Source of the DNA: Antedon mediterranea
Lineage: Eukaryota > Echinodermata > Crinoidea > Comatulida > Antedonidae
Reading direction: 5' to 3'
NCBI RefSeq assembly: GCF_964355755.1
Contig: NC_092677.1
Span: 5,957,001 to 6,021,000, forward strand
DNA length: 64,000 nt
Numbering within the stretch: position 1 is the first letter of the stretch; the number at the start of each line of letters is the position of its first letter. A program made the position numbers and the translations under genes. Shown piece by piece: positions 4,948 through 62,721 of the stretch. The notes under the pieces were generated by a model. The model saw nothing but the letters and a program-made list of their open reading frames with translations, was not told the origin of the DNA and made no database searches.

Positions 4948-5180
4948 GACGACGATGGCGATGATGATGACGATAGCGATGATGATGATAATGGTGGCGA
5001 TGATGATGATAATGATGACGATGGCGATGATGATGATAATGATGACGATGGCGATGATTATGATAATGATGATGGCAATAATCATGACGATGGCAATGAT
5101 GATGATAATGATGATGATGGCGATGATGATGATGATGATGATGATGATGATAATGACGACGATGATGATAATGAACAGGA
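4948..5180 (+). repeat. Imperfect GAT-rich trinucleotide array
   Basis: Runs of GAT interrupted by GAC, GGC and AAT, with a higher-order unit of about 24 bases (GACGATGGCGATGATGATGA...). Open frames on both strands (poly-Met/Ile) are by-products of the repeat. Confidence 0.95.
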
Positions 5181-6752: not shown

Positions 6753-6832
6753 CGGGTATGACTCGATCCCACGACCTCCAGATCACTAACCAGACGTTCA
6801 TCCTGTACCTATAGACCACCGAGCTTGCTCCC
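6753..6832 (-). repeat. tRNA-like SINE head or tRNA pseudogene
   Basis: On the minus strand the stretch has a box A-like AAGCTCGGTGGTCTATAGG and a box B-like GTGGGATCGAGTC at tRNA-like spacing. The acceptor stem does not close cleanly and there is no CCA context, so a SINE head is more likely than a functional tRNA. Confidence 0.45.
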
Positions 6833-6910
6833 TACCCAATATTAGTTAAATATACAATTATCATACAGATTGAGTGCATATATTCCATTTTACAACATCG
6901 TGACTGGAGA

Positions 6911-7245
6911 TTATGATGATGATGATGAGGAGGAGGAAGATGATAATGATGATGATGATGATGATGATGATAAAGAGGAGGATGATGATGAAGATAATGA
7001 TGATAAGGAGGAGGATGGTGATGATAGAGAGGATGAGGAACATGATAATGGAGAGGATGAGAAAAATGATGAAGAGGATGAGGAACATGATGATGGTGAT
7101 GAGGATGATGTAGAGAAGGAAAAACATGATGATGATGATGATTATGATGATGATGATCATGAAGAGGAGGATGGAGAGGAGGAAGATGACAATGATGATG
7201 AGGTGGAGGTGGAGGAGGAGGAGGATAAAGGAGAGGAGTAGGTCA

Positions 7246-7277
<32 letters not shown>

Positions 7278-7395
7278 AGAAGGAAGATGACAATGATGTT
7301 GGAGAGGAGGATAATGACGTTGGAGAGGACGATGATGATAATGGTGATGGAGTTGAGAAGGAGGATGACGGAGAGGAGTATGACATGATGATGAG
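6911..7395 (+). repeat. GAT/GAG trinucleotide array, about 480 bp
   Basis: A compound array of GAT, GAG, GAA and GGA triplets, strongly purine-rich on the plus strand. It yields a 123-codon Asp/Glu-rich frame on plus and poly-Ile on minus. No splice sites or conserved flank support a coding role. Confidence 0.95.
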
Positions 7396-8571
7396 AATAC
7401 AGTATAAATGGTTCTTGATAATCAGTTCCCTAAAGAGATGTCTTTTGACTACTGTAAGCTAAACACGACTTAACAAACCTACATCGCGGTAATCTCAGAT
7501 CTAAACCATAACAATACATTATTTATTCCACTTCACGTTTTAAAGTTTTCCGACGACGTACTAATTGGAAAATGATTACCTCACAACACGTGATAATTAA
7601 GGAAAACTACCTCCTTAGAATTAATTGCTATTTTTTTTTTTTTAAATAAACGTCAATGGATTGGAAAAATCAATAGTAATAATGATAATATAGGATTACT
7701 TGACAATAAAGCATTGAATTACATATCGACTTTCAATAATTATAATTTGCGATTCTAATTTCGATGCCTGCTTCATATTCCAGTAATTATTATTAACATT
7801 TATTTTATTTGATATTTATTTGTGAAATATATCTTTAAGTTGGTTTATTACATGATTGTATATAAATTGGATTAAATCTCCTCCTTGCAAACTATGGTGA
7901 CGATAAGTCATTAACAGTCTTCTACTTATATGGGCCTATATATTGAGTTTGAAGTTTTTAAAGCTGTATTAAACACTCAGCAGAAGGTCTAGTACTACTA
8001 GTGGTAAATGCATGCATATAATGCTTCGTCAACATGTTTTTTAATCTAATATCAATTAATTATGCAAACAAAAAAGACAACCCGAAGCATTCATTTCCCA
8101 AGCTATCTTGATTTTAACACAATTGAATCGTCTAGAGTTTCAACAGAGAGAATAATGAAGATAATAGAGAAAATAATAAAATGATGCACCAGATAAAACA
8201 GGCCAATCGTTAGTAGTTTAATAATATTAGTAAATCTTGTATTTTGAAATCGTCGTATCTTGTATTTTGAAAAACTAAATATCTTAATTAGCTGCACTAG
8301 TGAAAACGAAAATATTGGAAGCAGGTCTATGCAAGTAACAAAAACATTAAATACTGCTTTGCTCTCCAAGAAGTAGGCCTACGTGGGTTATGTGTCAATG
8401 CGTTGATCTATTTCAAGAATACAATTAATTGCCTACATCAGATGTGTACCAAGTATTCTGCCCACGTGGGCTACAACCGTCAATGGTATAGGCTATGATT
8501 CTGATAACAAAATAACATTTTACGTATAATTTACATTGATGGGATCAGAAACAGAATAGAGACCGCTAGAA
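7396..8571. other. No gene recognised
   Basis: AT-rich unique sequence. An 88-codon minus-strand frame at 8103-8369 has no domain or splice context. Confidence 0.5.
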
Positions 8572-8752
8572 AGAAGTTTTTGAAGTAAGCGATAATTTTT
8601 TTTTCGCCAGCGAGATGTTTTTTGTCATTAGCAAAGAATGTTTTTTTTAATGTTAGCGAGAAGTTTTTAGGTTAGCGAGATGCGATTTTTTACGTTAGCG
8701 AAAATGTTTTTTTTTACGTTAGGGAGAGGTTTTTGACGTTAGAAATAATTAA
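8572..8752 (+). repeat. Degenerate tandem repeat, unit about 25-30 bp
   Basis: Six or seven diverged copies of TTTTTTACGTTAGCGAGATG with T-run length differences. An old minisatellite. Confidence 0.7.
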
Positions 8753-9373
8753 TTTATAAGGCAAGAAAAAAGTAGATGACAGAAATACGATTTGCATAAT
8801 TGTATAACCTATTTCTTATTGTACAATATAAATAGAGAAACAATCTGACACAAATTCTATTTTGTGCCATTACTAGAAATGTAATATGTATTATTGTGCT
8901 TAATAGCTGCTGTTAGATATATATATTATATGTATTAAACTATTATGTTCTGCCTTTTTTATGCTCACATTAATTTGAGATGTAATACGTTATTGCAATT
9001 CGTAACACGCATGTAGCACGGAGGCAAAGGCCGTCCTATTTAAATGCATACCGCTAATATTCTATTTAACAAAAGGTTTTTTTAATAAAAGGGCTGAGAC
9101 AGAAATTCATTAATATTTTGGATGATGCCAAGATAGAGAGATAAGAAATGGAAAATGAAGCTGTAATTATACTATTATCTAGTTCTTCGTCATTTAATAT
9201 TTTGGTGTAATGTCAAATAGTTATTAAATTTTGCCCAAAAAGTGGTTAAAAAAAATATTTACAAAAGCAGACAATAGTCAATAGTTATCGTTTTGATTTA
9301 GCTTTTTGATTATTTTATGTAGTACTTTATTTGCATATCGATTGAAATCCAATGTTGAAGTTGTGTTTTGACC

Positions 9374-9476
9374 TATACCAGGTACCCATTTGTACACTAG
9401 GTGAGCTAGGATACAAGGGATGCGGGGAACTTTGGATTCGAACACACGATCGGTCCAACACAGTGCACCAGACGCC
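9374..9476 (-). repeat. SINE fragment, tRNA-derived, minus strand
   Basis: On the minus strand a box B-like TGTGTTCGAATCC is followed by CCCGCATCCCTTGTATCC and ACAAATGGGTACCTGG. The TGTATCC and AATGGGTACC blocks also occur in the SINE at 63553, so they are probably the same family. Box A is poorly preserved. Confidence 0.55.
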
Positions 9477-9943
9477 TTTACGATACACTGCGGTATTGTA
9501 ATTTTAATTAGTAATTTTTAAAAAGAAATAGTATAATATTAATTTTAAAATAATATTAAAAACATCTAATATTAAGCATTGAAAAAAAAATGTGTAACGT
9601 TTGAAATTCAATCATAGTAAGTTTTGTTGTAAATGAAGAGAAGTTGGAAGGGGAACATTGAAGATTCTCCTTAAGTGATGTAAAACATTCTCAATTCAGT
9701 TCTTAAAAAGTTAAAAAAAAACTGTTTTACTCACATCACACGACGGATATATGGCGGAAACTTTTAAATTCGATGTCTAAAACTACGTAATACATTGTTA
9801 CGTATCGCATGCAAATGTTTACATTCTATTACCTATATATATATTTGTTTAATGAAAACAGTTATTCTTTATTAATATTATAAGAAGCCACACAAGTAGA
9901 TTGTGTTCGTGTGCACCGGTGTGAAAATCACGTAGAGCAAATC

Positions 9944-9972
9944 AATAAAAAAAAAAAAAAAAAAAAAAAAAA
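9944..9972 (+). repeat. Poly(A) tract
   Basis: A near-pure run of about 28 A (positions approximate) after AATC. It may be the tail of a retroposed sequence, though no body is recognisable upstream. Confidence 0.7.
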
Positions 9973-10045
9973 CACAACTAAGATCAAATACCATTTTCCT
10001 ATTGCTATTAAATGTCAAATATTTAAAAGAATTGACAGAACTTAC

Positions 10046-10106
10046 CGTGAATTATGGCATGTATAGTCAGCAAAAGCATCACATAAAAACCTTCGCTAAT
10101 CTTCAT
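10046..10106 (-). CDS. Signal-peptide first exon of a second minus-strand gene
   Basis: ATG at 10106 gives MKISEGFYVMLLLTIHAIIH followed by G|GTAAGTTC, a consensus donor in phase 1. The 20 residues form a signal peptide with a Leu-rich core. It lies downstream of the stop codon of the Ig/FN3 gene on the same strand, so it should start a separate gene that continues towards lower coordinates. No further exon of it could be identified in the first 10 kb. Same phase and similar leader suggest, but do not show, a tandem paralogue of the Ig gene. Confidence 0.5.
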
Positions 10107-12236
10107 GGCAACGTATACAGCACAAGTAGTAGAAGTTATATATTCCCTTGGTTCTAAACGAACAATATCAACTCATCTCTGTGACTCGATTGCATTGAAT
10201 GCACCACCAACGTAGGAGGAGGCCTACGTAATCGCTACGCATCACTGAACTTGACAGTCGTCTGCGTGTGTGTTTATTCTTCTGTCCATATCCTATTTGG
10301 CGTGTTAGTCCCTAAGCGTTTCAGGACAATCTACCGCATCAATTATGCAAAATCATGCCACTCTGCCATTTATCCTACGCTTTCTATCTTCATACTAAAA
10401 CAAATAATACAAATCAGGTTTATTTGGCATTTCGCATACCATACTATAGCCTATTTTGAAATCATTGAAAATCGAAAAAAAAAAAAACACTACGTCACAT
10501 ACGTGTGTTTGATTGTAGGCCTACACAAATTAATAATTAAAGACACTGGACCTGCAATTATTGACGTCTTGTACAAATAATTAAAACATTAAACCAGGTC
10601 ATTTCTTATCTTAAATGTGCGTTCTAAGGTTAATTATGATAAAAAGAGAAAAATAAAGCACTACCACTAAGTAGCTCGCGTCGAAAGTTCCGGTGAACAG
10701 ACGATCGTCTAATTATATTAGGCACGAACGTCCATAAGCCCGAATGCCATAAAGTTGGGCTCGAACGTCCATTAAAATTATTAGAATCGACTTATTATTT
10801 TACATTTTTGACCGTTTAAAAACGAACAAAATATCGCAATGAGTCCATAGGCCTATAGTATTTATTTTTACATCACATGTATTGTGTGACCTTAAATTAG
10901 GTACAAAAAACGTAGATCTTATGTCTTTAAAAGATATAAAATTAGGCCTCTTTAGTAGACATACAATTAATATTGTATATAATATTGGCTTACGTAGATG
11001 GCGTTTAGTAGATGCTTGGATCACTATTTACGACATTGGAAACAATCCGACAATTAACCGTACACGAGTTAAACTGAAATGATCGTGGATCTACAGTAAC
11101 ACTGTAAACATCTTACACTGAAACTGAATAGCATTCCATAGATCAGAGATATCGTAGGCTACCGTATACAATCACTAAATTCGATCGTGTAGAAAGATTT
11201 GTGTTGCATCTATTAATAGATTAATTTTACGTTTGTTGATTGACGGCAATTGACACATTTTATTTTGGCAGTTGTCTATTTATCCGACAGATGAATTAAC
11301 CTATACATTGTCGCAGAAACGTCGTATTGCCATTAGCATACATGCTGCATTGATAAAACGAGCACTACTGTCTAAACAAGCAAAGCAGCATAAGAAATTC
11401 CAGGTGTAGAATTTTGACATTCCTAAATACACGTCCCTACATTTCTTAAGTCAATGTACCTAACATCAACATAAAAAAAACTTGTCACTATAAATACGGT
11501 ATACGCTATTGTAATTATGAGATAAAGTAGGCCTACGGTACCCGGATTGCTGGTAGATGCACGGCCCTGGTAGCCATATTAGAAGAGTTACGACATTCTG
11601 TTAACGAGTTTTCAAAAGTCACATGACACTTTAAACGGCCATCTTTGTAATTCTATTTAGAGTATGGAGTTTAGGCCTACTGCAGCAGACCGAATTTAAT
11701 ATCAAACAATCCATTTATTTAAACGTTTTAAAAAAAATGTTAACGAAATGTATAAGTTACTGTGAACATGGTTTTAAACAACGAAATGTAAAAACGATGC
11801 AGTTAACTATAGAGAATCGCAAATTCTTGGACACAAAATTGGCTTCTAATCCATTTAATATCGTAACTCTTCTAAATGGCTCTAATTATTATCCAATAAT
11901 AATAATAAACAAACGGTTACATACATACCACTGTTTATGTTCATCATCAATGTTATCTTCAGTGATTTAGATTTGTCCTTTGCATATTTTAATACAAATC
12001 TTTTGATTGGTTCTTTCTTGGTACGTAATTTGCATACACAGCCAACCGCTGCTAACGGATGTACGGTATTGCTAATAATATACCAATTATAAGTATAGTA
12101 GCCTAAACTACAATCTGAAAATAAGGACAGAGTATCGGTGACCCAGGACAGCCACAAGAGCACCACTAACCGATACCTACATTAGTTGATTTGATTTTCA
12201 TTAAGAAAAATCCATCTTGGAGGATTGACCAATTGA
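10107..12236. other. Upstream of the 10106 signal exon; no gene recognised
   Basis: Several TAGGCCTA octamers but no supported exon. The first few hundred bases should contain the promoter of the gene starting at 10106. Confidence 0.45.
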
Positions 12237-12545
12237 TTAAAGATGTATTATCCCCCTAAAAAAATAATTCTTGTTATTTGTTTTTCGTTGAATATGCCAT
12301 TTTAATGTCACCTCATATAGTTATCCACTTTGACCAAAAATTTGAAAAAATTAGTCAAATTGGATGCCAGCCAAAGGGTTTTAGGTTGAATTTAACAATT
12401 TATTTTATAAGTAAAAACATTAATTTCTTCCGGTTTTTTTCCTACCGAAGTGATTAACTTTATTAAAACTACAAAATAATATTTTCAAAGTCTGATTTTA
12501 TTAATCTTTATTTTTCATATTTTTTGGGGGACAATACATCTTTAT
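12237..12545. mobile_element. MITE-like element, family B (AAAGATGTATTGTCCCCC ends), copy 1
   Basis: Both ends carry inverted repeats: TAAAGATGTATTATCCCCC on the left and its inverse GGGGGACAATACATCTTTA on the right. About 309 bp, no coding capacity. Related copies occur at 18895, 26109 and 62600. Confidence 0.85.
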
Positions 12546-13263
12546 GTGTTTAATATGCATTTGACGAAACTAAATGATTATGATTGTCATGTATGTTGCT
12601 CATGCCATCGTAAGGTTCCTGATCATATCTCCTGAACCGTTGAACACCTGGAATTGGTAACAATCAAACTTCCTGGATGTTCAATTACTGTTTTAAATTA
12701 CTGGCAGTAGCAAAAAAAAAAATCAATTTTCAACATTTCTACAATATGCTTTTTATTATTTGTCCTTAAATTCATCTCTGAACAATATTATTTCCCTTTC
12801 TTTATCAATCGATTGATTGCATTAAATACACACAATTACCCATCAATTGTAAATTGTCTTTTATTTTGTTTTAGTGAAACACATTAAATCTGGCAGTGTG
12901 CTACTTTTCAAGCATTTCAAAAACCAGTAAGCACTTTCAGTGCTCTAAAAATTATTACCATTTTCCTATCTTATGACTGTGGACCGCTTATATGCGCTAT
13001 ATAAGAGTTTTAAAACTAGGCCTATGTGTTGTTTATTCGTTCTGTCAATATAGGCCTAATACTCGGCAGTTTCCAAGATCTGCCACCATTTATATTTAGA
13101 TTTTATAGCATTTCTTCCTTCCTTTCTTCTTGAAATTGAAATACTCTTGTATCAGTAGCAAAATAAAATACATGAAATTATGGATGAAAATAAAATGTTC
13201 AAAGTCAGGTATAACACTGGGTTCATGTGAGTCATTCGCTTTTTAACAAGGCCAACAGCCATT

Positions 13264-14045
13264 AAGTCGCGTGCTACAATGCATAGTGATACCGGACCGA
13301 CAGACAGACCGACAGACCGACAGACAGACCGACAGACAGACAGAGAGACCGACCGACCGACCGACATAGTGAACTATACTGACCGAAATTACTGAACATG
13401 TTTAAAAATGTTGAAATGTTTAAAAACATTTTTTTTTTTTTTATTTACACGTGCGTAGCCTATCACTTTCGACGTGCTCGTATAACGTAATTTCGAGTTG
13501 AAAAGTAAGTCAAGAAAACAGAAATCGGGCAAAAAGAGTGCGCCACAACATTTAACGCGCAGTGCGCGCGCAAAAATATGCGCACTCATGGCAATTTTGT
13601 AAACGCTTAAAATTGCCTGAAATGTACTCTTATTTCATCGAAAATAAATTTTGAAAATGTTAAGCGCGCGTACGCATGCGTTACATGCGCTACGCACGTA
13701 ATTTTATTGCCATATGATGATTTATGCCCTGAAATTTATGAGTACCAAATTTTATTTAATTGTGATTCATGGTTGTGAAGATATGATTACAAACGTGATT
13801 TCGTTAAATCGTGCGTAGACCGCGTAATTTTTTATTGCGCACCGTGAAAACATAACCACATTGATTCCTGGCCATAAGGAATATACTGTGAAAAATTGAC
13901 CTAGCTAGATTAAACTGATATCAAGATAAGGTCAGAAAGCGATAAAACGCATAGTGATACCGGACCGACAGACAGACAGACAGACCGACAGACAGACAGA
14001 CAGACAGACCGACCGACATAGTGAACTATAGAGTCGCTTCTACGC
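13264..14045 (+). repeat. GACAGACCG-type repeat with hairpin end, two copies
   Basis: Two blocks (about 13290-13366 and 13965-14018) of GACAGACA/GACCGACC units each begin CATAGTGATACCGGACC and end CGACATAGTGAACTAT. The second is followed by AGAGTCGCTTCTACGCGACT, an imperfect hairpin. The interval between has CG-rich palindromes (GCGCGCGTACGCATGCG). A third copy end lies at 54828. Probably a non-autonomous mobile repeat with an internal microsatellite. Confidence 0.7.
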
Positions 14046-15689
14046 GACTAAAAATAGTTGCAAACACAGTAATTACCTTGTAAAAATGTTATGAAATAAA
14101 ATTCGGAATTTAAGATTTAAACAACGTCCTAATGTTATTTATGTTTATTTTACTAACTAGTACGATATTAAACAAGTACAATACAGAACTGTGCGTATAG
14201 TGATGTATGTACAGTAAGTTACGTCGTCTAAAAAATTACATAATAAAAATCGTATTATGAAATAAAAGTTGTTTAATAAAGAACTAAACGTTATATGAAT
14301 ATGTTATCATTGTACATAAATAACTGATGTTAAAACTAATTGGAAATAGCAGGGGTAATTGACTTTCTGTCACGCTGTAGTTGTCTCTAGGTAACTTCTT
14401 CCCAACAATCTTAATTAAAGCAACTCGGTAATGCAATTTTCAATCGATCTTTATTACACACTGATGCGACTGACGCCGGTGCCATACCAATGAGCTATCC
14501 AATTTTCCTAACTAACTTAAAATTTATGAGACTTGCAATAAAGATGAATATCTTCCATGAGAAGTAAACACCATTACACTAATTACTGTTAATAATTCAT
14601 ATTAGCCAACGATAATCATTGTTGCTTTCAAATCTTCAGCAATAAACAACTCAAATACATTCTATTTCTTGAAAATCATGCTATATTTACAAGTATCGAT
14701 TATAATTCGTATAACTAGGTATATAATTACAATTCTCATCTATACTCTCAAATTCGTAATCTCCAGTTTAATAAGAATATATACACGTATAAAAGTAAAA
14801 CTTACTCTATAATATTTAAACAGTAAACTATCTGCTTGATATTGTATCAGTATAAATGTAATGCAATGTCGAAATAAAACCCAGGTTAAGCAACGTAAGA
14901 ATGGGTATGTAGAAGGTTAGAAATTTAACCTGAAATAGAGCTATCTGATAGATTATTCCAAAGAACACAGTTCTAAAGCTTTCTAAATCAAGAATTTGTA
15001 CTATTACTAAGTCATGTTAAGTTTATAAATTCCTTCGCTGAATTCTTTTGCAATCAATCCTTCCAAAAAAAAAAAACCTTGAATATGCTAAACTATTTTG
15101 GCGCAGGGCATTCTGATTATACTTGTAAACTACAAATAGTCACCTCTCATAATTTTATACAAAAATCAGAAAACCGGTTGTAAGTGTCCACTAGCAATTA
15201 ACTGACGTAGCACAAAATGTGCTAAGCATCTATAAATACTTAATGACTGAACGCACCTTTTACTGTCTATTATTTTGATTATTTATTTGAAAATATAAAA
15301 TACCTATTTTGTTCTAAAACTCACTTGTGTTGCTTATTTAACATAACAATGCGAGTTGAATTTGACAGCTACAATAATTTGGTCCTCCTTTTTTAACATA
15401 AAAAAAATAGGTACACATTAGATCACACAGTCTGTTCACACCGAAAACGTGTAAAAGGTATTCGCAACGTACATTCACACTTGAATCGGAAAGGTGAATT
15501 ACGCTATGTATTACGGTGATTCTGTTATTTGATATTTGTTCAGACGACGTACAAAGTAAACCTGTTCTTGTCAGTGTAATAGTTTCAATAAAATGTGTGT
15601 TATTTTCTTTTTGAAAGAATTTTATTTCAGTAATCATTCTAAAATTATACTTTTCGAACAAATAATATGGATTATTAATTTATTTTTTT
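14046..15689. other. No gene recognised
   Basis: AT-rich DNA downstream of the Ig/FN3 gene. A box A-like GGATAGCTCATTGGTATGGC on the minus strand (about 14477-14500) lacks a convincing box B. Confidence 0.5.
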
Positions 15690-16041
15690 ATTTTATTTAT
15701 TATTTAATAATGATCGATTCTACAAAACTCAACGTTTTGGTTCTCAAACATGTTTTTACATATGTTATTATGCAATTTCCTACCCATTTTTATTTATAGT
15801 AGTTGATATTCCACTGACTATCACAGTTATTCTTTTTTCTAAACTGAATGTACTTATTTCTATAAAAGAACCAGTATATTGTATAGTCACTCCATCTGTT
15901 AAGATTATTGAAAAGTCTGCTGCCATTTTAATTATTCCTAACAAAGTCTCTGTACATCCGGGTTGAACTTCATCGACTCTTGCCACGCCTTCTTATAATG
16001 TCATTCTTCGTCCGCAAAAAAACAACTTCATTTGCATTTCA
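15690..16041 (-). other. Probable 3' UTR of the Ig/FN3 gene
   Basis: This lies immediately after the stop codon on the minus strand. AATAAA-type signals on the minus strand (TTTATT on the plus strand) occur near 15690-15795. A 68-codon open frame in this stretch has no recognisable domain and is better explained as UTR. The exact poly(A) site cannot be fixed. Confidence 0.4.
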
Positions 16042-16151
16042 TTACAAGAATCCAATCGACATCGTCATTAAGAGTATAACTGGGATCAAAAAGTTACTTA
16101 TCAATGTCAGGCCAACTCCATTTCCAGGCAATGTCTGAATTTGTGCATAAG
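16042..16151 (-). CDS. Ig/FN3 gene last exon: hydrophobic C-terminus, GPI-signal-like
   Basis: The acceptor TTTTTTATAG is followed by a phase-1 exon of 35 full codons and a stop. It begins YAQIQTLPGNGVG and ends in a run of about 22 hydrophobic residues (LTLISNFLIPVILLMTMSI...) followed directly by TAA. A small-residue cluster (GNG) before a hydrophobic tail with no basic tail after it is the usual form of a GPI-attachment signal. The transmembrane alternative is possible but would leave no cytoplasmic residues. Confidence 0.75.
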
Positions 16152-19100
16152 CTATAAAAAATAAATAATAAACGTGATCGGACAAGATATATACACACAG
16201 ATAAGATTCACCATTTAGAAAATTGCAGGCAACAGTTTTGAAATCATCACTCTTAGGCGTTTCCAAATGAATGTGTCATGACAATTTATCAAGTTCGCTG
16301 CAATATCGCGTGATTTTCTCAAATAAAGCATGCTAGACTAAAAGAAATATCGCATACAAGTTAATGAATTGCGACCTTCGTGATCAAATTAATAACATTT
16401 TGATTTAATTTTGTATCCGTATATTTAATTGCCACGCATTCACGGATTGATTATCTTAACGTTAATGTCGATGAAACGTTAAGATAGCAGTAATTGCACT
16501 ACTCCGTTTTTTGTTGCATTTTTTGTATAACCATGGAGGTGTATAACTATATATCAGAAGGGAAACATTATAATAAATGTATTGTTTAGAAAACAAGATC
16601 TTAATTTATTTTTTGTTGTTGTGCTGGTTGTATTAAAATAACAAGTTCGAATTGCTTACTTGGTTTTTTTTCTCTATACACATATAAATGTTATATATAA
16701 AAACTATATTAATTACGGATACAAAGTTTAAAAACATAAGAAAAGAAGGATTACAATGACCAAATTAATAAATATGTGAAGATGGTTAGATTTACAACAA
16801 ATACAACATATCGTTGAATGAATAAATGAATAAAAGTGGTGGTTCAAGTCACAAAAGACGAATTGATTTCTCTACTTGTAAGGGCAGTGGTAACTAAACT
16901 TTAAATGAAATGTCTTCAAAAATTAACAATGCGTGCTCTTTTAGGAATGAAGCCTTCCTGTAAAATTTCAAGAAAAAATTGAAGATAGTCTGTCTATTAA
17001 TAGTTTTAAAATTAATTATAAAAAGCATTTCTTTCCACCAGTTTCTTTATTCACTGATTGTTGTATTTTTTTTGTCTTGGATTTTTTGAATTCTTGTGTT
17101 TTAAAGTTGTTTCATTGCAGGACCATATTGAAAAACAGAAATGTTGTGATCTTTTCTTTTCTGAATTATATTATCCTGCCTAAATATGTTTTAATAAATA
17201 ATAAATAAATAAATAAAGCATTTTAATATGTTCTACATTTAGGGTCTACGGTTTGATTATAGGTTCAATTGAGAAGCGGACATTTGTCTGTCACAACAAA
17301 AGTTTAGTATCATGATGTATACGATGTGCTTCTAATGGAAAACAGGCAAATTCGAGACATTTTTCGACGACTCTTGCTTGTTTATCTGAAGATGGACGGG
17401 AACCCCAAAAACCTGCTCTTATACTCAAATTTAATGCCGTCTCCTGTTAAACCATTTTACTTTTAATAATAAATAAAAGTTTAAAATAAATTCTATAATA
17501 ATAGAAAACAAAATGATAAGTTTAATGTTCTTGTTGACCAAAACGCCGATACATAGGCCTATTTTATTTCATTTTTTAATGAACTGCACTTTACTGCAAA
17601 CTTTACAATCATTTCAGCTACTTAAATTAGATCACATCGTTTAAATTCTCTGTTTATTCCTTATGATAAACTATATATCTAAAAAATCCACACAATCTTT
17701 TCTGATACAAAAATATTATATGACGAGTTTGCAAGTTAGTTTCTTACTGTTTATACTACTGGCCGGCTGTTAAAGTATGATATATTAACATCAATCTAGG
17801 TTTTCATGTAACTTAAATCATGTATTTTATGTTGTGGCAAAGAGAGTTAGAATAGAATCATGTTACGTATTAAATTCTAATTTGTAGGGTACCTGAGTGA
17901 ACTGAAATCCATATACGTAAATTATTCTTCTGTAACATGAGGCACCACCTAATATAGGCCTTTTTCTTCTTTGTTTTGTAGGTTGAGAATTATTATGTAC
18001 TTAACTTTCGCATTGATGATCGACACAAGAAAGACAGACCTACGCAGTTGCTTTTAATATAATGTTTATAATTATTAAGCCCGTGAATGTGTCTATTTCT
18101 CCTTGCAACAAAGAAAGTGGAATTTCTTTTCTTTATTCGTTTTACGTAGCTTGTTTCTGTCCATTATAAACATCAATACAATACATTACAGTTAAATAAT
18201 CATACTATGCAGACCTACTAAAAGATGCTAACTTTGGATTATTCAATGTGGAATGTAGGCCTATACATATGTGTGCAACTCGGCATAAATACTTAGAACG
18301 TTAGCGCAAGTTTATTAGGCCTATCTTTACTTGAGACGGTGTGTGTTGTTTTCTTCAAGATCTTATATTTTGAAAGAAAAGTTCGCATAAAATGATTATT
18401 TCGAGAATGTATAATATCTGCCAATTTTGTTTTCTTATGTTTTTCTTCAAACTGACTTACGTAATAGATGGCGCTGTTCATATTTAGGCCTACAACGATT
18501 GCCTATCTCTTGCTCTTTTTTCACGCTGCTGCTTTAGCCCGCTACGTCCCAGGAGGATGACTCATTAAGAAACCGAAAGTAAAGCAGCAGTTATATATCT
18601 AAGGTTGACAGTTTTGCTAAAATGTATACTCGACTGTAATTTATATGTACCACCAAAAAACGTCTGGGAAAGAGTATAACGGTTGAATGACAAATCCCAA
18701 AGCATTTGTGGTATTTATGAGTCCCATGATATTATATAATTCGCTGTCATATGATACTTCACACTTGAATGAAGTATCTAGGCATGATGAAGTGACCCCC
18801 AGACTTGACCTTAGCAATAAACTAAAGTGACTGATATGAAACACAGACTCTGTAACAAAAAAATAATATTTTTTCACATATAAAAAAAGAAAAGAAACGT
18901 TTAATTATAACTCAAAAACCATTGTCTGACAGACAATTTAAGTATTTTTTGCATTAAATTACATTTTTTCAGGTAAAATAACTATTATGTGACAATAAAA
19001 TGATACATTCACACACAAATTTGAAATAAAAAATATTTTTCAGGGGAACAATAGGCCTATATCTTTAAAACTGTTACGTCAATAAGCGAGTTGCGTTTTT

Positions 19101-22100
19101 TGTAAGAAATATTTCTTGTTTACTACTGTATTAAAACATTTTATGTATATGAATGTAAATGTGGTTACTTCTTAACATCAAAATAATCTTAGTCTTATTT
19201 ATATACTGTTCAAAAGATATGTATTTTTTTAACAATGTACCTTATATATAAGAGAATTATATAAATGTGCATATATACATATATTATTTATATTTATAGA
19301 ACTATAATAAAAGTGGGACGAACCCACACAAGACAAAAAAAAACATTTTATAAACTTTATTTTTGAACACAGTTTGCATAATTGTAATTATTATTGAATT
19401 GAGTTTTACCTAGCTTATTGTGTACACACAGATAAGATTCAGGATCTAGAAAAACTCTTAGGCGTTTCCAAATGAATGTGTCATGACAACCGATCAAGTT
19501 CGCTGCAATATCGCGTGATTTGATTTCTCTAATAAAGCATGCCAGACTAAAATTATTATTACGAACATGTATAATAATATTATTTATATAATAACATTTT
19601 TTTCCCTGTGTTTTTTTTTTAAATGACTTAAGCAATAGATGGCGATGTAGGCCTACTTACCATAATTATTGCAAACTTTTTTAAATTTTGATATTAACTT
19701 TTGCAATTTGTAATCATGAGTTAAAATATTTATAAATAGTAACTTACCTTTCGGCTGCGTCGGTGTTGCTACGCTTGCTTGAAGTACGTAATCCTCTAAA
19801 ACGACAGAGTTCATAATATAACTAAATTCAATAAATTCAATGTATTGAAGTGTTGACATCCCGGTTGACATGTCATGAATCAAGGGTCTAAACGAGGTTG
19901 CAATTGTGTACACCATGGTCATACACGAGGTTCAGTCTTAAGCTTGGTTCCCACTAGGACGTAACGCAAGAACGTAAACGCAACGCAAGCGTTTTGACCA
20001 ATGCTAAGCGACAGTTCGAATAATTCATCGCTCTTGTAATTGGTCAACTCACTTACGTTGCGTTACGTCCTTGTGTTGCGTCTCTAGTGCGAACCAAGCT
20101 TAAGTGTCAGGTGAAAACGAGGTAGGCTTATGCTAAGTTGACGTGTATAGAGCAATTTCAAAAACTTGACCATTCTACTACTAATACCATTTTCACATCT
20201 TGTTTTGTAAGTGTATTATAGAGATACATATAATTATTATTAATGTTACCTAGAGGGGTCTGTATTGTAATGCTTCCCACGTCGCCAGCAATGTCATCTT
20301 CAATATACGGTGTGACGAATATCTTATACCAAGTCTGACGACGAAGCGCTTGTAAACGTAATGCGAAGTGTTTTTTCGACGAAATCACTGGAACTCGAAT
20401 TCGTTGAACTTCAATACCATCGCTAAAACTATTATTGTTCTGTTGGTGGAAAGGAGTAAGTGCCAGTTATAAAGCAGTAGGAGTGAACACAAATGAATAA
20501 TAAAACAATGTGAGGATCTCTTTTGGCGTAGGATGTAGGCCTATCACAAGCAAAAGTGATTTCAAACGTGGTCCACACTGTCGAGAATTATTACATAACG
20601 TATCTGATTTTGCTGTAAACCTGTAGATAAATAGCATCAAACGAAAGAATAAACATTCATGAAAAATGAATGAGAACGGAAATAAGATTCAACTATATGC
20701 TAAAGCACTGCGTTGAATATATATTTATACTGGCGATTATATATTAGTAGGTGATCTAAATATAATCTAACTAAAACTGTGATTACTAATTTGGGGCTGA
20801 TCACGTGTGATACGTCACGACCAGACCATACTATTGTTTGGAATGGCCTTTACAGTCGTGGAGACGCAGCTGTACCAAATTGGAAAGTAAAGGTTATCGA
20901 AAAGGAATCACTGATAGAAAGAAGAAAGATTAAGAAAGCCATGCATACAGAATAAAACACAACATTGGATAATATTATCTTCCGCATGTTTACGATAGTT
21001 TATTAAAGATAATTAAATCAGGAGGTAAAAAAGAGCGGAAACGCTCAATCGTCAACAAAAGGACGACTGGTGGCGCCACACAGCGTCTCTAACTGTACAG
21101 ACAAACAGCATACCAACGGAACGCCATTAAGGTATTTATACCATTTGTGTCTGTATTATTTGGTTCAACAAAAAAAGTAATAATTTTAATTAAATAGTTT
21201 TATATAATACATATTTATTCTTTCTTACATTTTATCTAGCTCTGAGATAATTACGATTCACTTACATTTGTTAAACGTGAGCCTACATTTTTTTTAACTT
21301 GAATAACACGAACTATGAAATACTTGTGCGCAACGTAGTGACCATTAGATTTCCATCTTAAATGGTATTCATTTGCTTTTCTGCTCGTATTTCCACTGAG
21401 AATAGTAGGCATCTTTGGACGACCTTAAAGAGGAAAAAATAGTGTTACTGTACCTTAAAGAGTAGCTCCGGGTCTTAAAAAAATGTTGGGTCATTATGTC
21501 AACATAATAACCCAACTTTTTTATAGCGGTGACAGCATAATGTTCGTAGTGAAAAAATCCTATTTTCAAAAATGTTGATAATCACATTATAGTGGGAATG
21601 ACGACAACATCGTGACGGTGACTTAATGATTGTTTGTTGCATTGTGATGATAGATAAAATGACGTGATGATGGTTACGACTTTACGAACGTTGACGATAC
21701 TAATAATAATGGTGGATGGATTGTGACGAATGTTTGTGATACTACTGGTAAGGAATTTTGTGATTAAATATTTTGTGAATAATAAACTGTAGTTAAACCA
21801 GGGAAGAGTGAATTAATGATTATGTTGATGCTCACCACTAATAGCATATGTTCTCGATGTTTTACCCTGCGAGTTAGTAATTTCACACGTGTAATCACCA
21901 TAGTCTGTTTTTGACGAAATTGTCACCAGTAAGCTGTAAACACAAATAAAAAATATAAAGCGTAAATATAAAGGCTATTAACAGATGAGGGCGTATCAAT
22001 TGTAACTCAATTGCGCATGCTTACATTGAACACTATAGCGCTGTTCCACCAAACCACGCTTAGGGTGTTTGTTAAAGGGTCGCTATCCAATCGAACACTC

Positions 22101-25100
22101 CACGAAAAGCCAACACGTGCTCTAATAGCTATGAAATATCAAGTTAAAGATTCCATGTTCGAATCTCAGTTAGGACGGGTTTTTTCCCATCAGATATGAT
22201 CCAGTAGGCATACATCTCACTGGGGCTTTCTATTACTGTTGTGATGTTAATAATTATATAAGAGGTATTGTCAGTTGGAATCAAACCATATAAACATCTT
22301 AATAAAAGGTGAATTAGTTGACGTTCAAAATAAGCTGTACATGGTTAAAAAGCCTGCCTACCTATCCTCTGTCATCCACATTGAATTTGAATGTATGGGT
22401 ACACCATCCTTGTACCACGTGGTGTTCACAGGGCGTGGGTTTCCAGTGTGCTTGCAGAAGATAGCGAGTTGCTCGCCCACTCCAACACGTCTGTCTTGAT
22501 CAGAGCTGGACGTAATCTCTGGTTTATCTGGTGTATTGAAATAGTAAAAATGTTATACAGTATAGTATTTATAGTTGAACATGTTATATACGTATAGCAC
22601 AATGTCAGTAACTTACGCAATACTGATATATTCACTGTTCGGTTAACCACACCAGCCTCGTTCCATGCTTTACATGTGTAGACTCCGTCATACTTTCGTG
22701 TCAAATTGGGAAATACGAGCATCGATGCGTTCATGAATTTCACCTTATCATCCTTGTTGGATGTTCTCCTCCACAAGACGTCTGGAAGTGGAGAACCATT
22801 AGTCTCACAGCTCAGAGTAAGAAAAACAGATTCTTTAAACTCCAATAGACAACCTTTACCAATCGAAATGTTGTTTACTCTGATGTCTGTAATTTTTGGA
22901 GCAACTATTAAAAACAAGATGTAAATAGTATCTATAACAAATGTATGTTATTAACCGTACAATATAAACGCTACACGTTCATCAATGTTAGTCACGTGAA
23001 AAATAATGAAAACTAATCAATTGAGGTATATTTAAAGAATACATCAAAAGCTATCATGAATAAACAGTTGCAACCTACACCGTATTTTTATTCCGTGTTT
23101 TAATGCCTAGCATTAGTTGGCTATTGTTAGGCGCAAAAGTATGAAAAAATCCAAGGATTCAAAATCAAATATCAAATAAAGCTATCTTTACTATTATAGC
23201 TACGCTTTCAAACTAGTTTGACAAAAAATGTGTGATGTGCCCAATTGTTTGATATTTTTTTTTTTTTTATTTATTCGGTATATAAAAATATATTACAAAA
23301 CGACAGTCAAGGACTGAAATGAAATGTATTACAAATGACTAAAAATTAGTTAAAATTGCTATAAAAATAGAAACATCTTAATAAAATTAGATATCGTACC
23401 ATACAATTAAAAACATACATGAATAAAAAACCTTAAAACCTTCACTTATTACATATCTAAAAAAGAGCTAGTGGTGCCTATTAATTATATCCACCATGGT
23501 GGGAACTGGAGACGACCTAAGTCTGCTGGTTTTACAATGGCGTCATCGTGTCCATATATTAAATCACATTTTTTGTCACATAAAGTTTGATAATGTAGAC
23601 AGAGGATATAAAACTTAGGTTAAGAAAAAAATCATAACTGTGGCGTATCATTTGTTACCTATTGTCTGTATTTCATATTGAAAACGCTGTACGTATTGGC
23701 CTTCAGCTTGCGTTGCTTCGCACACGTATGTCCCCGAATAGTCTGTTGTCATCTGCTTAATCGTAAGCATTGATATGTTTTTAAAACCATTTTCCTTAAT
23801 TTCAAATTGATTGTTTCTTGTTGTCGAATCGATTTCTGCATAAGCAATAAACAATTATTTATTACACTAAAGGCAAGTCATGTAATGCACCAAGATATAC
23901 TGTAAGGATGTGTTTAATAAATTGTCAACATACTCGTGGTAGGCCTACACATCGTTTTCAGTTTTAATATTATTTCAACTAGTCCTTCCATTGGAAATGC
24001 GAGAGTTCTGATCCTGCTAAAGGCACATTGTCATTTTTATAACAATTTGTGATAACTACTTGATATAAAGATAGCTTGTCGCCCTCTATGTGTCTTGAAG
24101 ACATATCGCCGCTCAATATTCTATTAAAATGTTGAAATACATTTGCTTATTGAATATCTAAAAACATATTTACATTTACTCTTTTTACAATTATTGTTTC
24201 CGATTAATGGATTAAATTATAATATAATACAGTATTAAATTATAATATAATACAGCTAAAAATGGTTAAAAGCATTTTTTAAGAAACAAACATAATTATA
24301 TTGAAAGCAAAGAAAAATTGATTTTGAATATTGTTTTTATTTGTTAAAATGTTTTAAGAAATAATAAACCCAATTATAAAAACGTTAAAACAGCCACAAT
24401 GGCCAAGTAAGTTGCGCATGCACACTCGGATGGTAGCGTCAACAATACGAGTATAATGTACACATAGGTCATACCTTGAATTTTATCAGAAGGTTTGGTT
24501 CGAGACCATTCAAATGTGCTTTTCGAGTTAACAATACACTCGATTGTTACGGAGTACCCTTCTTTAATACTCTTAAACAGCGGATCCCCTTCCGATGTTA
24601 TAACTGGATCTGAAAAAAAAAACACAATACTATTATTTACGGTATTATAAATAACGTACATATGAGTGCTGTTAGCAGATCTCATAACGCAATGTAGTTT
24701 TATTGACGCGCTGGACCCTCAAAGAGACACAAACCGAATGTAAATGAGAACGCTTCTCATTTTATAACAAAGTACTTCCCAAAATCGTCGCCTGCCATTA
24801 TGGTTTACCCGCAGGAAGCGGCAAACACCGTAACTTAGCCTAGGTCGTCCTTAGGCCAATGTTTTGAGAATAAACAACGAACCTGACAAGCGATAAATCG
24901 GGACGGGAGGTAAAATTGATATGCAAAATATAAATAGCTGCTTCGCAGCAATAATGAATTAATATTGACACAATACATAGATTGGTTAACCTTGGCGAGG
25001 TATTAATATTCTTATAATGAATATGGATTAAGTTACGTCATCTATGTTAAAATTAAGAATGAGATAATAAATGATGATTAATTATCTTAAATTAAAACAT

Positions 25101-28100
25101 TAAAATAGACACGCGGGCACTATAATAATATTATCGTAGTCCATTGATTTGCCCACGATAGCTCTTTTTACTTGGAAAATAGATTGCTTGCCAACTACAT
25201 TACTTGCTTTGTTTGTTATTTTGTTTGTTAGCTCTATAGCGCCTACAATTTTGAAGTTATCATAAATTTTCGATGTAAATATAGGTATATATACTGCATA
25301 AGCCTATTGAAATTCAAGAAAATCAGTTCATTATTAAACATTTAACATGGGTCAAAATATCAACATGCGCCCTCTGTGGCTTTATTATTTTGACTAGTAC
25401 TTTTCTCAGTTTCTACGTGATTTCATCAGCCTATCAAGGCACCCATAAAATGCAATCACCCCTTTTTCAGCCTATCCAGATATTTATTGCATGTGACTAA
25501 CAGTCGACGCCCTTGTTTATGATTGCTCTTTTTTTCAACCCATTCCCTGGCAGTCGACAGTCATTTTGCCTGTGGTCACTCTCTTCAGACCATCCAAACA
25601 CCCATTGCAAGCGATCGCCCTTCTTAGCCCATCCAGGCATTCACTGCATAGGTCACTGATCGCTCTTTTAACCTCTGGCAGTAAGGCCTAAATGACTTGT
25701 AAACTTCATTCAGGTTTGTTTCTTGCAGGGTGTTTCTTTCATAAATAATTCAGAACCATCTAGTTTATTTTCAAGGCGCCTGGTAAGTGTCCAAGTAATG
25801 CACACCCATGATGTGCACATCATAACTTGCAACGATTTAGTATGCATTCGTTTTAATGTAAATTAAAAGAGGAACCAGTAAGGTATGCTGGGTTTAGGCT
25901 ATTGGTAAATAGTGTGTTTTAGATAATTATTTTTCACAACTATAACTCTAGTGTCTAGATAGTCACGAGTGGGTTCCAAACATGGGCAGTCGTTTGTTTT
26001 CGCGCCGCAACCAACGACTAGTGCAGCTACGCGGAATTTTAAAAGTCATCCTGCACGCAACATCTGAGCATGCGCAGTCGTGAAAATGAAAAGTCGATGT
26101 TTGGCATCTTTAAAGATGTATTGTCCCTCAAAATAATGAAAAATAAAGATTTTTAAAATCGGACTTTGAATAGGCCATTTTGCAGTTTTAATGAAGTTGT
26201 TCACTTCCATAAGGAAAAAAACGGGGTAAAAAAATTATTTCACCTATAAAAAGACAAAATATACAGTTAAATTACCCAAAAACTCATTGTCTTCCAGACA
26301 ATTTGACAATTTTTTGCTTTAAATTACATTTTTCTCAGGTAAATAAATTTTTTTCAGACCAAAGTTTTTGTGAGAGTGAATAACTATTATGTGACATTAA
26401 AATAACATATTCAACAAAAAAATGTAAAAAAAAATTTTTTTAGGGGGACAATATATCTTTAAATATTACATAATCTATATACTAGTTTAATGATAATAAT
26501 ATTGTAAACATAAATTTTAAAAATCGAGTAATAAAATTCATTACAATTCATTATAATTAGGCCAAATGAAATAGAATAAAAGTAACACAATTACTGTGCT
26601 ATTTAGTTCCTGCCTCAAATTCAAACATTTATTTCATCAAATGCCATACAAATAATATTATTATTATTTTGCGAGCGCATTGTAAACATCAACATGATTC
26701 CAGTTCCTGCTCTCTTTTCCAATTATAAAATGCATATATACAATATGCTATTAATCTATTATTCATTCGTTTATATTAATAATAAAATAGATGTTCACTT
26801 AAGCCAATGATATGTTTTAATTTAAAGAGTCAAGTGGATCTTTAATTTATAATCTTGAATATGTCTGTCTCCAAGCCTTATAAAAACAGTAGTTTAGTAA
26901 GTATTAATTTTTTAGCAAGTTTTTTTTTTAATTAGATAATAACAGCATTACCTTGAATTTTATAAACAGAATGAGATAAACAACATGATTATCTTCTTTT
27001 ATCTTTACAATAATGCGTTGACGTATCTTTTCGCAGAACCGTTGGAAATTGAGAGGGGTGCTGGTGGTTGGATCAGAAAAAAAAAAGAATAATGTATTGC
27101 TGCCAGGGAAGAGTTTGATTGTAATTTCTCACTTCTCTTGCTAGGACTCTGTATGATGTCTTCTCTATATCTACATGTTGAACGGGTTCTTGTTTACCAT
27201 TCGCTTGATATTCACCATATGCCCTATCTTACTGGTGAATAACTTGTCCATCTTTATTTTGCTGTTATTAATTTTTCATAATGTTTTCCATACTTTATTT
27301 ATGATTGTGTTGCTGATATAGAGCGTCAGTAACCGAGTATTATGTCGCCTACAATGTAGGCCTACCATCACCTTTGAAAAATACAATTGGTCCTATGTAG
27401 AATAATGGAAAGAGTACATAGTACATCGGACTTAGCAGATATCACACATTTTGTATCATTGATTACTGTACACATACGTGCAATAATCATATTCAATCAT
27501 TCTCATATCATACTTTGAAAGAAAATGCTATACATTTTAGATTAGTGAAATTGATTTCAATCTATTCTAGCCAGAAAAGTTATTAATACAGCATATACTT
27601 TTTATATTGTATTATTATTATTATTCTGAGCATATTACAGTCATTACTTTTATTCCCAACCAACCTACTCCATAATTGCTAATATATTTATCTAGATCTC
27701 GGGTTTGTAATAAGTTCAATGTATTTGGATGACATCATTAAAGTTATTAGCACATTCTGTAATCTGTAAATATTAGTTGGTGCATATTGGTTTCTTTCAG
27801 CAAATTTAGGGCATAAATGGATTTTAACAAACCCTATGTTTTACTTGCAATGTCATGCAGAAACTGGAGGTGTCATAATGACATGTGTTGCTGCATTTTC
27901 TGGACGCCAATTCGAATGTTATGCTTCTCTTCGTGTTTTCCAACACAAAAAATAAACATATAAAGAACGTCTAGAGGAATGACAGCTCATCGTATTTCAG
28001 ATATGATGTTTAGCCATTGGTTTTATGAGCAACGAGGCACTAGGTTTTTCTTGAAGAAAGCAGTACATTGTTCAAACTCAATGAATCTTCCTTTTCATTT

Positions 28101-28809
28101 CAAAACTTCGAAGTATTTATTACAGCGATAATCGTAAAAAATTCATTTAGCAAAAATGAATTAGGCCTTACTATAATTAATATTTATGCAACTTTAGCAA
28201 ATAAAGAGTAGAGGCATCTCTTGTACGTTTGCATGCGTCCGTGGAGAGGACTGATTACTCTGGAAAAAGTCAAGACTAGCAAAAGAGAGCAGCAAAAACT
28301 GAGAGAAAAATTAAGTGAAACTGCTGCTCTGCTACTTATCTAAAAACCTTGAAAGTTCTTTATGTATACATTTGTGTATATCTGGTTTTTTTTAATGAAT
28401 ATCTTATCATTCTTTAGGTTGAATGGTAAGGCTGGTGATAACGTGAATTTTGTGACATTCTTTGTGATGTTGTTGAATAAAGAATAATAATTTACAAAAA
28501 TTAATAACAGTGTTTGTCCTTTACTAAGATATTTTTGTTGCCGAAAAATATAGAATTTGTTTCTATTGAGTAGCTTTCAAGTGCCAGAAATAAAAAAATT
28601 ACCATATCCCTCATCTGTCGGCGCAAGCGCACTAGGCACGGATCTATTCTGTTGACAGATCCGTTTATAGTACGTGCCAGCTTGTGATTCGGCGTTCCAT
28701 ATAGTCACGTGATGATCTCGCAAACATTCCTGTTCATCTTGGCCTATTGTACCGCTGGTGGATCCGATCACAAGCTCCGTCTGTGTATATCGTCCAAGAA
28801 CTCGATGAA
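16042..28809 (-). CDS. Ig-like/fibronectin III cell-surface protein, probably GPI-anchored (gene span, 10 exons, 5' end not certain)
   Basis: Ten minus-strand exons bounded by AG and GT join without a frame break into 526 codons including the stop. Order: cysteine-containing N-terminal region; three Ig-like domains, each with the Cys...Trp...D.G.Y.C pattern; one FN3 domain split over two exons; a 15-residue stalk; a hydrophobic tail ending the protein. No cytoplasmic segment follows the tail, so GPI anchoring is the best reading; a tailless transmembrane protein is the alternative. Several N-glycosylation sequons (NAS, NLT, NRT, NIS, NTT) fit an extracellular protein. Nine exons begin in phase 1 (20250-20439 begins in phase 0), typical of shuffled extracellular modules. 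The layout (Ig, FN3, GPI) recalls contactin-like adhesion proteins, but it has too few domains to be contactin and no orthologue is recognised. A 5' exon with the signal peptide is missing from this span; candidates lie at 32759 and 55490. Exons and frame are seen; function in adhesion or recognition is inferred. Confidence 0.85.
16186..16341 (-). repeat. Segmental duplication, copy 1
   Basis: About 150 bp with close similarity to 19418-19556: shared blocks include CTCTTAGGCGTTTCCAAATG, AATGTGTCATGACAA and AGTTCGCTGCAATATCGCGT. Both lie in the last introns of the Ig/FN3 gene. The minus strand reads CHDTFIWKRLRV in both copies, so a decayed exon is possible. Confidence 0.75.
16870..17220 (+). 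repeat. Possible LINE 3' end with AAAT tail
   Basis: The stretch ends AATAAATAATAAATAAATAA, the sort of short tandem tail left by some LINEs, preceded by T-rich sequence. No reverse transcriptase motif is readable. Weak. Confidence 0.25.
18895..19068. mobile_element. MITE-like element, family B, partial copy
   Basis: Shares internal blocks with 26109-26463 (ATTGTCTGACAGACAATTT versus ATTGTCTTCCAGACAATTT; AATAACTATTATGTGACA) and ends CAGGGGAACAATAGG...ATATCTTTA. The left end is not recognisable. Confidence 0.65.
19418..19556 (-). repeat. Segmental duplication, copy 2
   Basis: Partner of 16186-16341. On the minus strand the frame NLIGCHDTFIWKRLRVFLD continues to PESYLCV. The other copy has an insertion in the middle, which shifts that frame. 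Confidence 0.75.
19748..19795 (-). CDS. Ig/FN3 gene exon: short membrane-proximal stalk
   Basis: A 48-nt exon, phase 1 at both ends (acceptor CGTTTTAG, donor G|GTAAGT, a near-perfect donor). It encodes DYVLQASVATPTQPK, a Thr/Pro/Ala-rich linker plausible between the FN3 domain and the anchor. It could be skipped without a frameshift, so it may be alternatively spliced. Support is the consensus splice sites and matching phase; there is no domain signature. Confidence 0.6.
19938..20103. mobile_element. MITE, family A (AGCTTGGTTCCCACTAG ends), copy 1
   Basis: 166 bp with inverted ends TTAAGCTTGGTTC and GAACCAAGCTTAA and subterminal ACGTAACGCAA/TTGCGTTACGT repeats. No coding capacity. Flanking TTAA could be the target duplication or part of the repeat. 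Lies in an intron of the Ig/FN3 gene. Confidence 0.88.
20250..20439 (-). CDS. Ig/FN3 gene exon: second half of the fibronectin III domain
   Basis: A 190-nt exon, phase 0 at its start and phase 1 at its end (acceptor CCAACAG, donor G|GTAACA). After a short Asn-rich loop it encodes FALRLQALRRQTWYKIFVTP and then a GDVGSITIQTPL strand, matching the E, F and G strands of FN3 (leucine before the L.p.t.Y.i.V.p motif and the closing QT). Between this exon and the previous one, on the opposite strand of the intron, lies a retroelement fragment. Confidence 0.87.
20788..20955 (+). pseudogene. C-terminal fragment of a Penelope-like/RT-GIY-YIG-type retroelement ORF
   Basis: The plus strand reads PDHTIVWNGLYSRGD, then NWKVKVIEKESLIERRKIKK, then AMHTE and a stop. 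The pattern HTI.W...kViekE....R.iKEAm is characteristic of the tail of Penelope-like and related GIY-YIG elements. Only about 55 codons remain. It is antisense within the intron that splits the FN3 domain of the Ig gene. Family assignment is from memory of the motif and is moderate. Confidence 0.5.
21266..21423 (-). CDS. Ig/FN3 gene exon: first half of the fibronectin III domain
   Basis: A 158-nt exon, phase 1 at its start and phase 0 at its end (acceptor TCTTTAAG, donor AAT|GTAAGT). It encodes RPKMPTILSGN, YHLRWKSNGHYVAHKYFIVR: strands A to C of an FN3 domain with the conserved Trp and a C-strand Tyr/Phe pattern. It lies exactly where an FN3 first half is needed, between Ig3 and the FN3 second half, and both phases fit. 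Confidence 0.85.
21836..21933 (-). CDS. Ig/FN3 gene exon: second half of Ig-like domain 3
   Basis: A 98-nt exon (acceptor TTTACAG, donor G|GTGAGC). It begins with one base that completes the Ser codon and ends in phase 1. It encodes LLVTISSKTDYGDYTCEITN, the E-F strands with the second disulphide cysteine, and SQGKTSRTYAI as the G strand. It is too short to stand out as an open frame alone; the splice phases and the Ig signature support it. Confidence 0.9.
22115..22260 (+). repeat. tRNA-derived SINE-like sequence
   Basis: A box B-like ATGTTCGAATCTC follows a weak box A (AATAGCTATGAAA). The downstream part (GATCCAGTAGGCATACATC) is non-coding. It lies in the intron between the two halves of Ig domain 3. 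Confidence 0.4.
22362..22527 (-). CDS. Ig/FN3 gene exon: first half of Ig-like domain 3
   Basis: A 166-nt exon (acceptor ACACCAG, donor AG|GTAGGC). It starts in phase 1 and ends in phase 2. It encodes KPEITSSS at the start, VGEQLAIFCKHTGNPRP with the B-strand Cys, and TTWYKDGVPI with the core Trp, typical of an I-set domain. One NTT sequon. A Ser codon is completed by the first base of the next exon. Confidence 0.92.
22617..22904 (-). CDS. Ig/FN3 gene exon: complete Ig-like domain 2
   Basis: A 288-nt exon, phase 1 at both ends (acceptor TTTAATAG, donor C|GTAAGT), encodes one whole Ig domain. APKITDIRV opens it, VFLTLSCETNGSPLPDVLW carries the B-strand Cys and core Trp, and NLTRKYDGVYTCKAWNEAG is a textbook F-strand motif. 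Sequons NIS, NAS, NLT, NRT and NIS make it heavily glycosylatable. Reading past the donor gives a longer open frame that is an artefact of the open intron. Confidence 0.93.
23659..23835 (-). CDS. Ig/FN3 gene exon: second half of Ig-like domain 1
   Basis: A 177-nt exon, phase 1 at both ends (acceptor TATGCAG, donor G|GTAACA). It contains NISMLTIKQMTTDYSGTYVC, the E-F strand signature with the conserved D.SGTYVC and the disulphide cysteine that pairs with the one in the preceding exon, followed by the G strand. One NIS sequon. It joins the next exon through a Val codon. Confidence 0.88.
24475..24609 (-). CDS. Ig/FN3 gene exon: first half of Ig-like domain 1
   Basis: A 135-nt exon, phase 1 at both ends, preceded by a long pyrimidine tract and CAG, with donor G|GTATGA. 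It encodes strands A to C of an Ig domain: PVITSEG at the start, SVTIEC with the B-strand cysteine, and FEWSR with the core tryptophan. Cys to Trp spacing is shorter than in most I-set domains. The second half of the domain is the next exon at 23659-23835. Confidence 0.85.
24610..28602 (-). other. Large intron of the Ig/FN3 gene
   Basis: About 4 kb with no additional exon found. It holds a family B MITE (26109-26463) and otherwise AT-rich unique DNA. Confidence 0.6.
26109..26463. mobile_element. MITE-like element, family B, copy 2
   Basis: Starts TAAAGATGTATTGTCCCTC and ends AGGGGGACAATATATCTTTA, inverted ends. About 355 bp, no ORF. Internal blocks match the copies at 18895 and 62600 (GAATAGGCCATTTTGCAGTT versus GAATAGGCCATCTCACAGTT). 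Confidence 0.85.
28603..28809 (-). CDS. Ig/FN3 gene exon: N-terminal cysteine-containing region
   Basis: This 207-nt exon is phase 1 at both ends, with acceptor ...TTCATTAG and donor G|GTAATT. It encodes 68 full codons with two cysteines about 25 residues apart (contexts QECLRD and YKRICQQ) and one NRS sequon. The stretch VTIWNAESQAGTYYKRIC resembles the E-F strands of an Ig V-like domain, but the usual upstream Cys/Trp half is not in this exon, so it may be a degenerate Ig domain or an unrelated N-terminal module. It splices in frame to the exon ending at 24475 through a shared Asp codon. It is less certain than the downstream exons because no family pattern is decisive. Confidence 0.65.
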
Positions 28810-59269: not shown

Positions 59270-59289
59270 AAAACATTCAGGACCGTAAA

Positions 59290-62710: not shown

Positions 62711-62721
62711 ACATGACTTAC

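Follow-up and report, generated by a model that had tools for sequence, protein, structure and literature searches.

Exon chain and reading frame

The window, i.e. the whole stretch of 64,000 nucleotides under analysis, carries on its minus strand a chain of exons running from 28809 to 16042, and all ten proposed exons were located in the sequence (Table 1). Acceptors are AG in ten of ten cases, donors are GT in nine of nine, and intron phases agree at every join, which bears out the ten exons with consensus splice sites and matching phases that an earlier note had read from this DNA. The joined exons amount to 1577 bases and give a single open frame of 524 complete codons followed by the stop, the two remaining frames containing many stops each. 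The 526 codons previously announced are right as to the single frame; this number results from counting, besides the complete codons, the stop and the first codon, which is split. Phase 1 was found at all domain borders, as expected for shuffled Ig modules, and the introns that interrupt Ig1, Ig3 and the FN3-like segment lie in phases 1, 2 and 0, respectively.

The G+C content of all ten exons exceeds that of their flanks, some of which overlap an adjacent exon, the margin being only 0.01–0.02 in the case of exons 6 and 7. For codon usage, a score was trained on two long reading frames and 21 FN3 stretches from this genome; it was best in the frame of the model for eight of the ten exons, exon 1 included, and positive for seven of them. 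Exons 9 and 10 did not score best in their frame, and the values of exons 7, 8 and 10 were negative. This score penalises stops in the other frames and therefore favours an open frame. It is also weak, as a free scan of both strands brought only three simple-repeat stretches above the listing cut-off and none of the exons of the gene. Overall, the exon assembly is sound, but the earlier description of the product as complete, FN3-containing and probably GPI-anchored goes beyond its support.

Table 1. Position and content of the exons, of candidate and neighbouring features in the window, and of other Ig-matching frames in the genome.
Feature	Coordinates	Strand	Content	Basis
Candidate first coding exon	55556-55490	-	putative; signal-peptide-like, 22 codons + 1 base, phase-1 donor	start-exon scan
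Exon 1	28809-28603	-	68 aa orphan segment, two Cys, phases 1-1	frame, G+C
Exon 2	24609-24475	-	Ig1, first half	frame, Ig_3 profile
Exon 3	23835-23659	-	Ig1, second half	frame, Ig_3 profile, unspliced-frame scan
Exon 4	22904-22617	-	whole Ig2	frame, Ig_3 (E 1.6e-9)
Exon 5	22527-22362	-	Ig3, first part	frame, unspliced-frame scan
Exon 6	21933-21836	-	Ig3, second part	Ig_3 profile 1-78 of 78, residues 270-344
Exon 7	21423-21266	-	FN3-like segment, first half	pattern only, no profile match
Exon 8	20439-20250	-	FN3-like segment, second half	pattern only, no profile match
Exon 9	19795-19748	-	16-codon stalk linker, phases 1-1	frame
Exon 10	16151-16042	-	hydrophobic C-terminal tail and stop, GPI-signal-like	frame, hydropathy
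95-base duplicate	16249-16343; 19454-19552		91% identical copies	genome search
Ankyrin-repeat exons	62710-63345	-	piece 63100-63345 weak, below cut-off
Tandem repeat	58637-59350		long, open in three frames, translation like VPIQYSTYTVQYLYST
Simple repeats	4924-5295; 6835-7459		Asp/Glu-rich in one frame
Ig frames of ~500-630 aa	C7:3414200-3416300 (294-1991 of that piece)	+	Ig domains, TM-like segment, tail with LTYADI and LDYATV	Ig-like matches, translation
Ig frames of ~500-630 aa	C7:1882545, 3562658, 3632170; C11:15983770; C3:18567270; C3:18529311			Ig-like matches
Frames of ~1340-1380 aa	C10:4102377, 4122525, 4147717; C1:24077708; C5:20708721, 20775159; C9:22130412; C6:22910810			Ig-like matches

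Ig domains and their relatives

The claim of three Ig domains is firm. In the joined protein, three stretches were recognised both by the Pfam profile Ig_3 (112.5 bits with a cut-off of 30, E 1.4e-32) and by I-set (96.7 bits with a cut-off of 23.7). Exons 2 and 3 joined cover positions 2–77 of the 78 of Ig_3, and joining exons 5 and 6 completes the profile for Ig3. In the unspliced frames, only fragments were obtained: for Ig3 the exon-5 part alone was matched, and for Ig1 exon 3 was matched just below one curated cut-off. The joins between exons 2 and 3 and between exons 5 and 6 are therefore supported by the profiles that they complete. The protein contains nine cysteines, including one pair per Ig domain (93/152, 205/250 and 293/340) with the separation usual for such domains. 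On the strength of these profile matches, assignment of the predicted product to the Ig superfamily, with tandem I-set-type domains, is firmly supported.

Relatives were searched in the 354,431,138 bases (18 contigs) of the animal's own genome. At E 0.1, 67 matches were obtained from 82 scored of 209 candidates. Nine of them are the exons of the gene itself, the 16-codon exon 9 giving none, and the best of the 58 others is 32% identical (E 4.2e-13) and lies in the Ig region. No close paralogue was found in this 354-Mb genome, where masked or gapped stretches could conceal one; the gene does not, therefore, belong to a visibly expanded recognition family. A search for mitochondrial COX1, intended to reveal the phylum through its genetic code, gave no match.

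Other frames with Ig-like matches are present elsewhere in the genome. Seven are uninterrupted over about 500–630 residues, and the tail of the one that was translated holds two short motifs (Table 1) which we take to be ITIM-like. Judging from this one frame, the seven may form a family of intronless genes for Ig receptors of the inhibitory type. Eight further uninterrupted frames reach about 1340–1380 residues; in a 1191-residue part of one of them, a long region free of Pfam matches precedes two Ig stretches close to the C-terminus.

Comparison with PDB sequences by phmmer gave 182 distinct sequences at E <= 0.01. The best 60 of these 182 are tandem-Ig proteins, with titin on top (4e-30), followed by DSCAM, neurofascin, VEGFR2, MDGA1, Robo1 and contactins; ectodomains of receptor-type phosphatases are present there too. 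The three Ig domains align in order with those of neurotrimin (query 83–359, E 1.1e-13, 53.8 bits) and of DIP-eta (query 89–354, E 5.5e-10). Both rank below titin, DSCAM, neurofascin, VEGFR2, MDGA1, Robo1 and LRIG1, of which a three-Ig fragment of 293 residues reaches 71.3 bits against the 53.8 of neurotrimin; long chains gather score, and such a ranking is not a tree. Taken together, the PDB matches indicate by their sequence a tandem Ig protein and no more.

Many receptor kinases and phosphatases have ectodomains made of Ig and FN3 domains. This frequent occurrence, and the VEGFR2 and phosphatase ectodomains among the listed matches, would suit a receptor whose cytoplasmic exons had been overlooked, a longer gene of the kind that the earlier note had itself raised as the alternative. 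Against it, a Pfam scan of the minus-strand frames at E <= 0.1 gave no kinase, phosphatase or other domain from 19747 down to position 1, and no domain in the 10 kb beyond the low end of the window. The domain-free scan thus extends to 26 kb past the stop on the same strand, and no kinase or other cytoplasmic domain was found downstream within that distance. On the other side of the gene (minus strand, 24610–62700), there was no further Ig, and nothing but PF22867 (YoaL) at E 0.072, far below its cut-off. As a control, the same type of scan over 19748–28809 recovered exons 3 and 4 and the part of Ig3 on exon 5; exons 1, 2, 7, 8 and 9 are absent from the listed matches. Since exon 2 was missed, domains split over short exons could escape such a scan. 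Even so, a receptor kinase or phosphatase appears very improbable.

FN3-like segment and the two ends of the protein

Ig3 is followed by about 115 residues encoded by exons 7 and 8, a length and position that are right for an FN3 domain. By eye, one stretch with a tryptophan resembles a B strand, and another with a tyrosine resembles an F strand. Pfam gave no FN3 match to this segment, either within the whole protein or alone (E up to 10), and phmmer against PDB sequences (E up to 10) gave no match. A profile built from 24 FN3 stretches of the same genome scored 2.8 bits on exons 7 and 8, compared to 2.3 bits on an Ig region and 7.7 bits for the best of 1000 shuffled sequences, and hhalign aligned only 14 columns of the segment with the own-genome FN3 alignment at a probability below 1%. 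Exon 8 folded alone gave a low-confidence model (mean pLDDT 65) of two strands, a helix and a strand; the helix sits where FN3 strands are expected, a half-domain folded alone being a poor test. The FN3 domain previously claimed was thus recognised by no Pfam, PDB or own-genome profile, and it is the sequence pattern alone that makes an FN3 fold plausible.

The protein had also been described as complete. Its first exon opens at a splice acceptor, so that the model lacks the initiator methionine and the signal peptide and is not complete. On the same strand, the next gene is an ankyrin-repeat gene at ~62.7–63.4 kb, and the start is therefore expected in the interval from 28.8 kb up to this gene. 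More ankyrin repeats follow in the next 10 kb and, still further in the 5' direction of that strand, a Death domain. First exons were sought as ATG exons that combine a hydrophobic core with a donor in phase 1. The best candidate in the window (11-residue hydropathy 2.77, donor score 10.3 bits) is proposed as a putative signal-peptide start exon; its donor is in phase with exon 1, or directly with exon 2. Among 40 third-order Markov sequences of equal length, a candidate of the same quality appeared once. At the same cut-off, this strand had two candidates and the opposite strand had one, compared to a mean of 1.6 per Markov sequence (n=40), and this chance-level number counts against the proposed exon.

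At the other end, exon 10 has a pyrimidine-rich acceptor and encodes a tail that is hydrophobic up to its last residue (15-residue hydropathy 2.4), with nothing beyond. Such a tail is probably a GPI-attachment signal. The GPI anchor put forward earlier fits the tail by its hydropathy and is kept as putative. In-phase TM-like terminal exons, exon 10 counted, numbered three on this strand and three on the control strand, and the scan alone does not, therefore, single out exon 10. All others on this strand share one ORF near 8.3 kb, where two alternative acceptors would give a TM-like terminal exon in phase. A 95-base duplicate has one copy just upstream of exon 10 and the other in the preceding intron, and the genome search found these two places only. 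It was considered as a duplicated tail exon and dropped, because the likeness leaves out exon 10.

These two ends bear on the possibility that part of the chain was joined wrongly, with exon 1 or exon 10 belonging to another transcript, in which case the true three-Ig product would end differently and be secreted or transmembrane. Exon 1 has no known domain or relative in Pfam or PDB, and in the own genome it matched only itself, plus one chance match (E 3.6). Folded alone, it gave no confident structure (mean pLDDT 46). Having phase 1 at both ends, it could be skipped with the frame kept; exons 2, 3, 4 and 9 are likewise multiples of three in length. The last intron measures 3.6 kb, the codon usage of exon 10 is poor, and the equal number of TM-like terminal exons on the control strand adds to the doubt. 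On the other hand, exon 1 is distinct in G+C (0.49 compared to 0.29 in its flanks) and scores best in the frame of the model, and for exon 10 the quality of its acceptor and the confinement of its competitors to a single ORF speak in favour of the chain as drawn. A mis-joined chain is considered unlikely.

Architecture and proposed role

In Drosophila, Klingon and Wrapper consist of three Ig domains and one FN3 domain and are GPI-linked. The earlier note had seen no family that could be named for this gene, a statement that does not hold, since three Ig, one FN3 and a GPI anchor are this make-up. The likeness, compared by architecture alone, concerns the proposed domain order and the type of anchor; the present protein differs by the extra orphan segment in front of Ig1 and by an FN3 that profiles do not recognise. 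MDGA1 and MDGA2 have six Ig domains, FN3, MAM and a GPI anchor. They share the order Ig, FN3, GPI with the predicted protein, whose best stretch on MDGA1 aligns query 143–364 with residues 389–615, whereas only three Ig are present here and no MAM was found on the minus strand (1–19747 and 24610–62700). With the three-Ig, GPI-anchored IgLON, DIP and lachesin proteins, the common points are the three tandem Ig domains aligning to neurotrimin and DIP-eta and the probable GPI tail, and the difference is the additional FN3-like segment after Ig3.

According to PMC10863630, Butler et al. (1997) demonstrated the GPI anchor of Klingon. The author response of the same article describes the domain content of Klingon as similar to that of Dprs and DIPs, of which it is a distant family member. 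The article also mentions many false negatives of GPI predictors for Dprs and DIPs, one of two predictors having missed Klingon (PMC10863630). An absent GPI prediction would not, therefore, be decisive.

Could the gene belong to the Klingon/Wrapper group, or more widely to the IgLON/DIP wiring receptors, and act in contacts of neurons or glia? The shared architecture and the ordered alignments to neurotrimin and DIP-eta point in this direction. However, titin, DSCAM, VEGFR2, MDGA1, Robo1, contactins and the LRIG1 fragment outscore both, so that no special kinship is visible, and the FN3 is only putative here. Neither Klingon nor Wrapper is named among the best 60 of the 182 PDB matches. Membership of this group is accordingly regarded as unlikely. 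The idea that the 68 residues of exon 1 are a new domain, capping a Klingon-like Ig-Ig-Ig-FN3-GPI stalk of a clade-specific, single-copy recognition protein, is held to be quite doubtful.

The preferred reading, which we consider fairly probable, is that of a one-copy gene for an Ig-superfamily surface glycoprotein made of the orphan segment, three Ig domains, an FN3-like segment close to the membrane, a short stalk and a GPI signal, with a role in adhesion or recognition. The surface recognition or adhesion protein proposed in the earlier note is retained in so far as the Ig superfamily and the probable GPI tail fit it; the absence of a matching family, on which it had drawn, was wrong. In such a protein, a signal peptide, on an exon probably far upstream, would lead the chain. 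Most likely, the Ig domains would engage an Ig protein, identical or different, on an adjacent cell, and the lipid anchor would keep the protein in the outer leaflet. Signalling would run via a partner receptor or through shedding, as is general among Ig adhesion proteins with a GPI anchor.

This is best seen as an ordinary Ig-superfamily gene, in which a specialist might be surprised only by the orphan segment at the N-terminus and by the possible make-up of Klingon type. Should transcripts confirm the chain and the animal lie outside the insects, the gene may represent a Klingon-type protein in another lineage, which would bear on the age of this architecture. Otherwise, it would be one more Ig-superfamily gene in a genome with many Ig domains.
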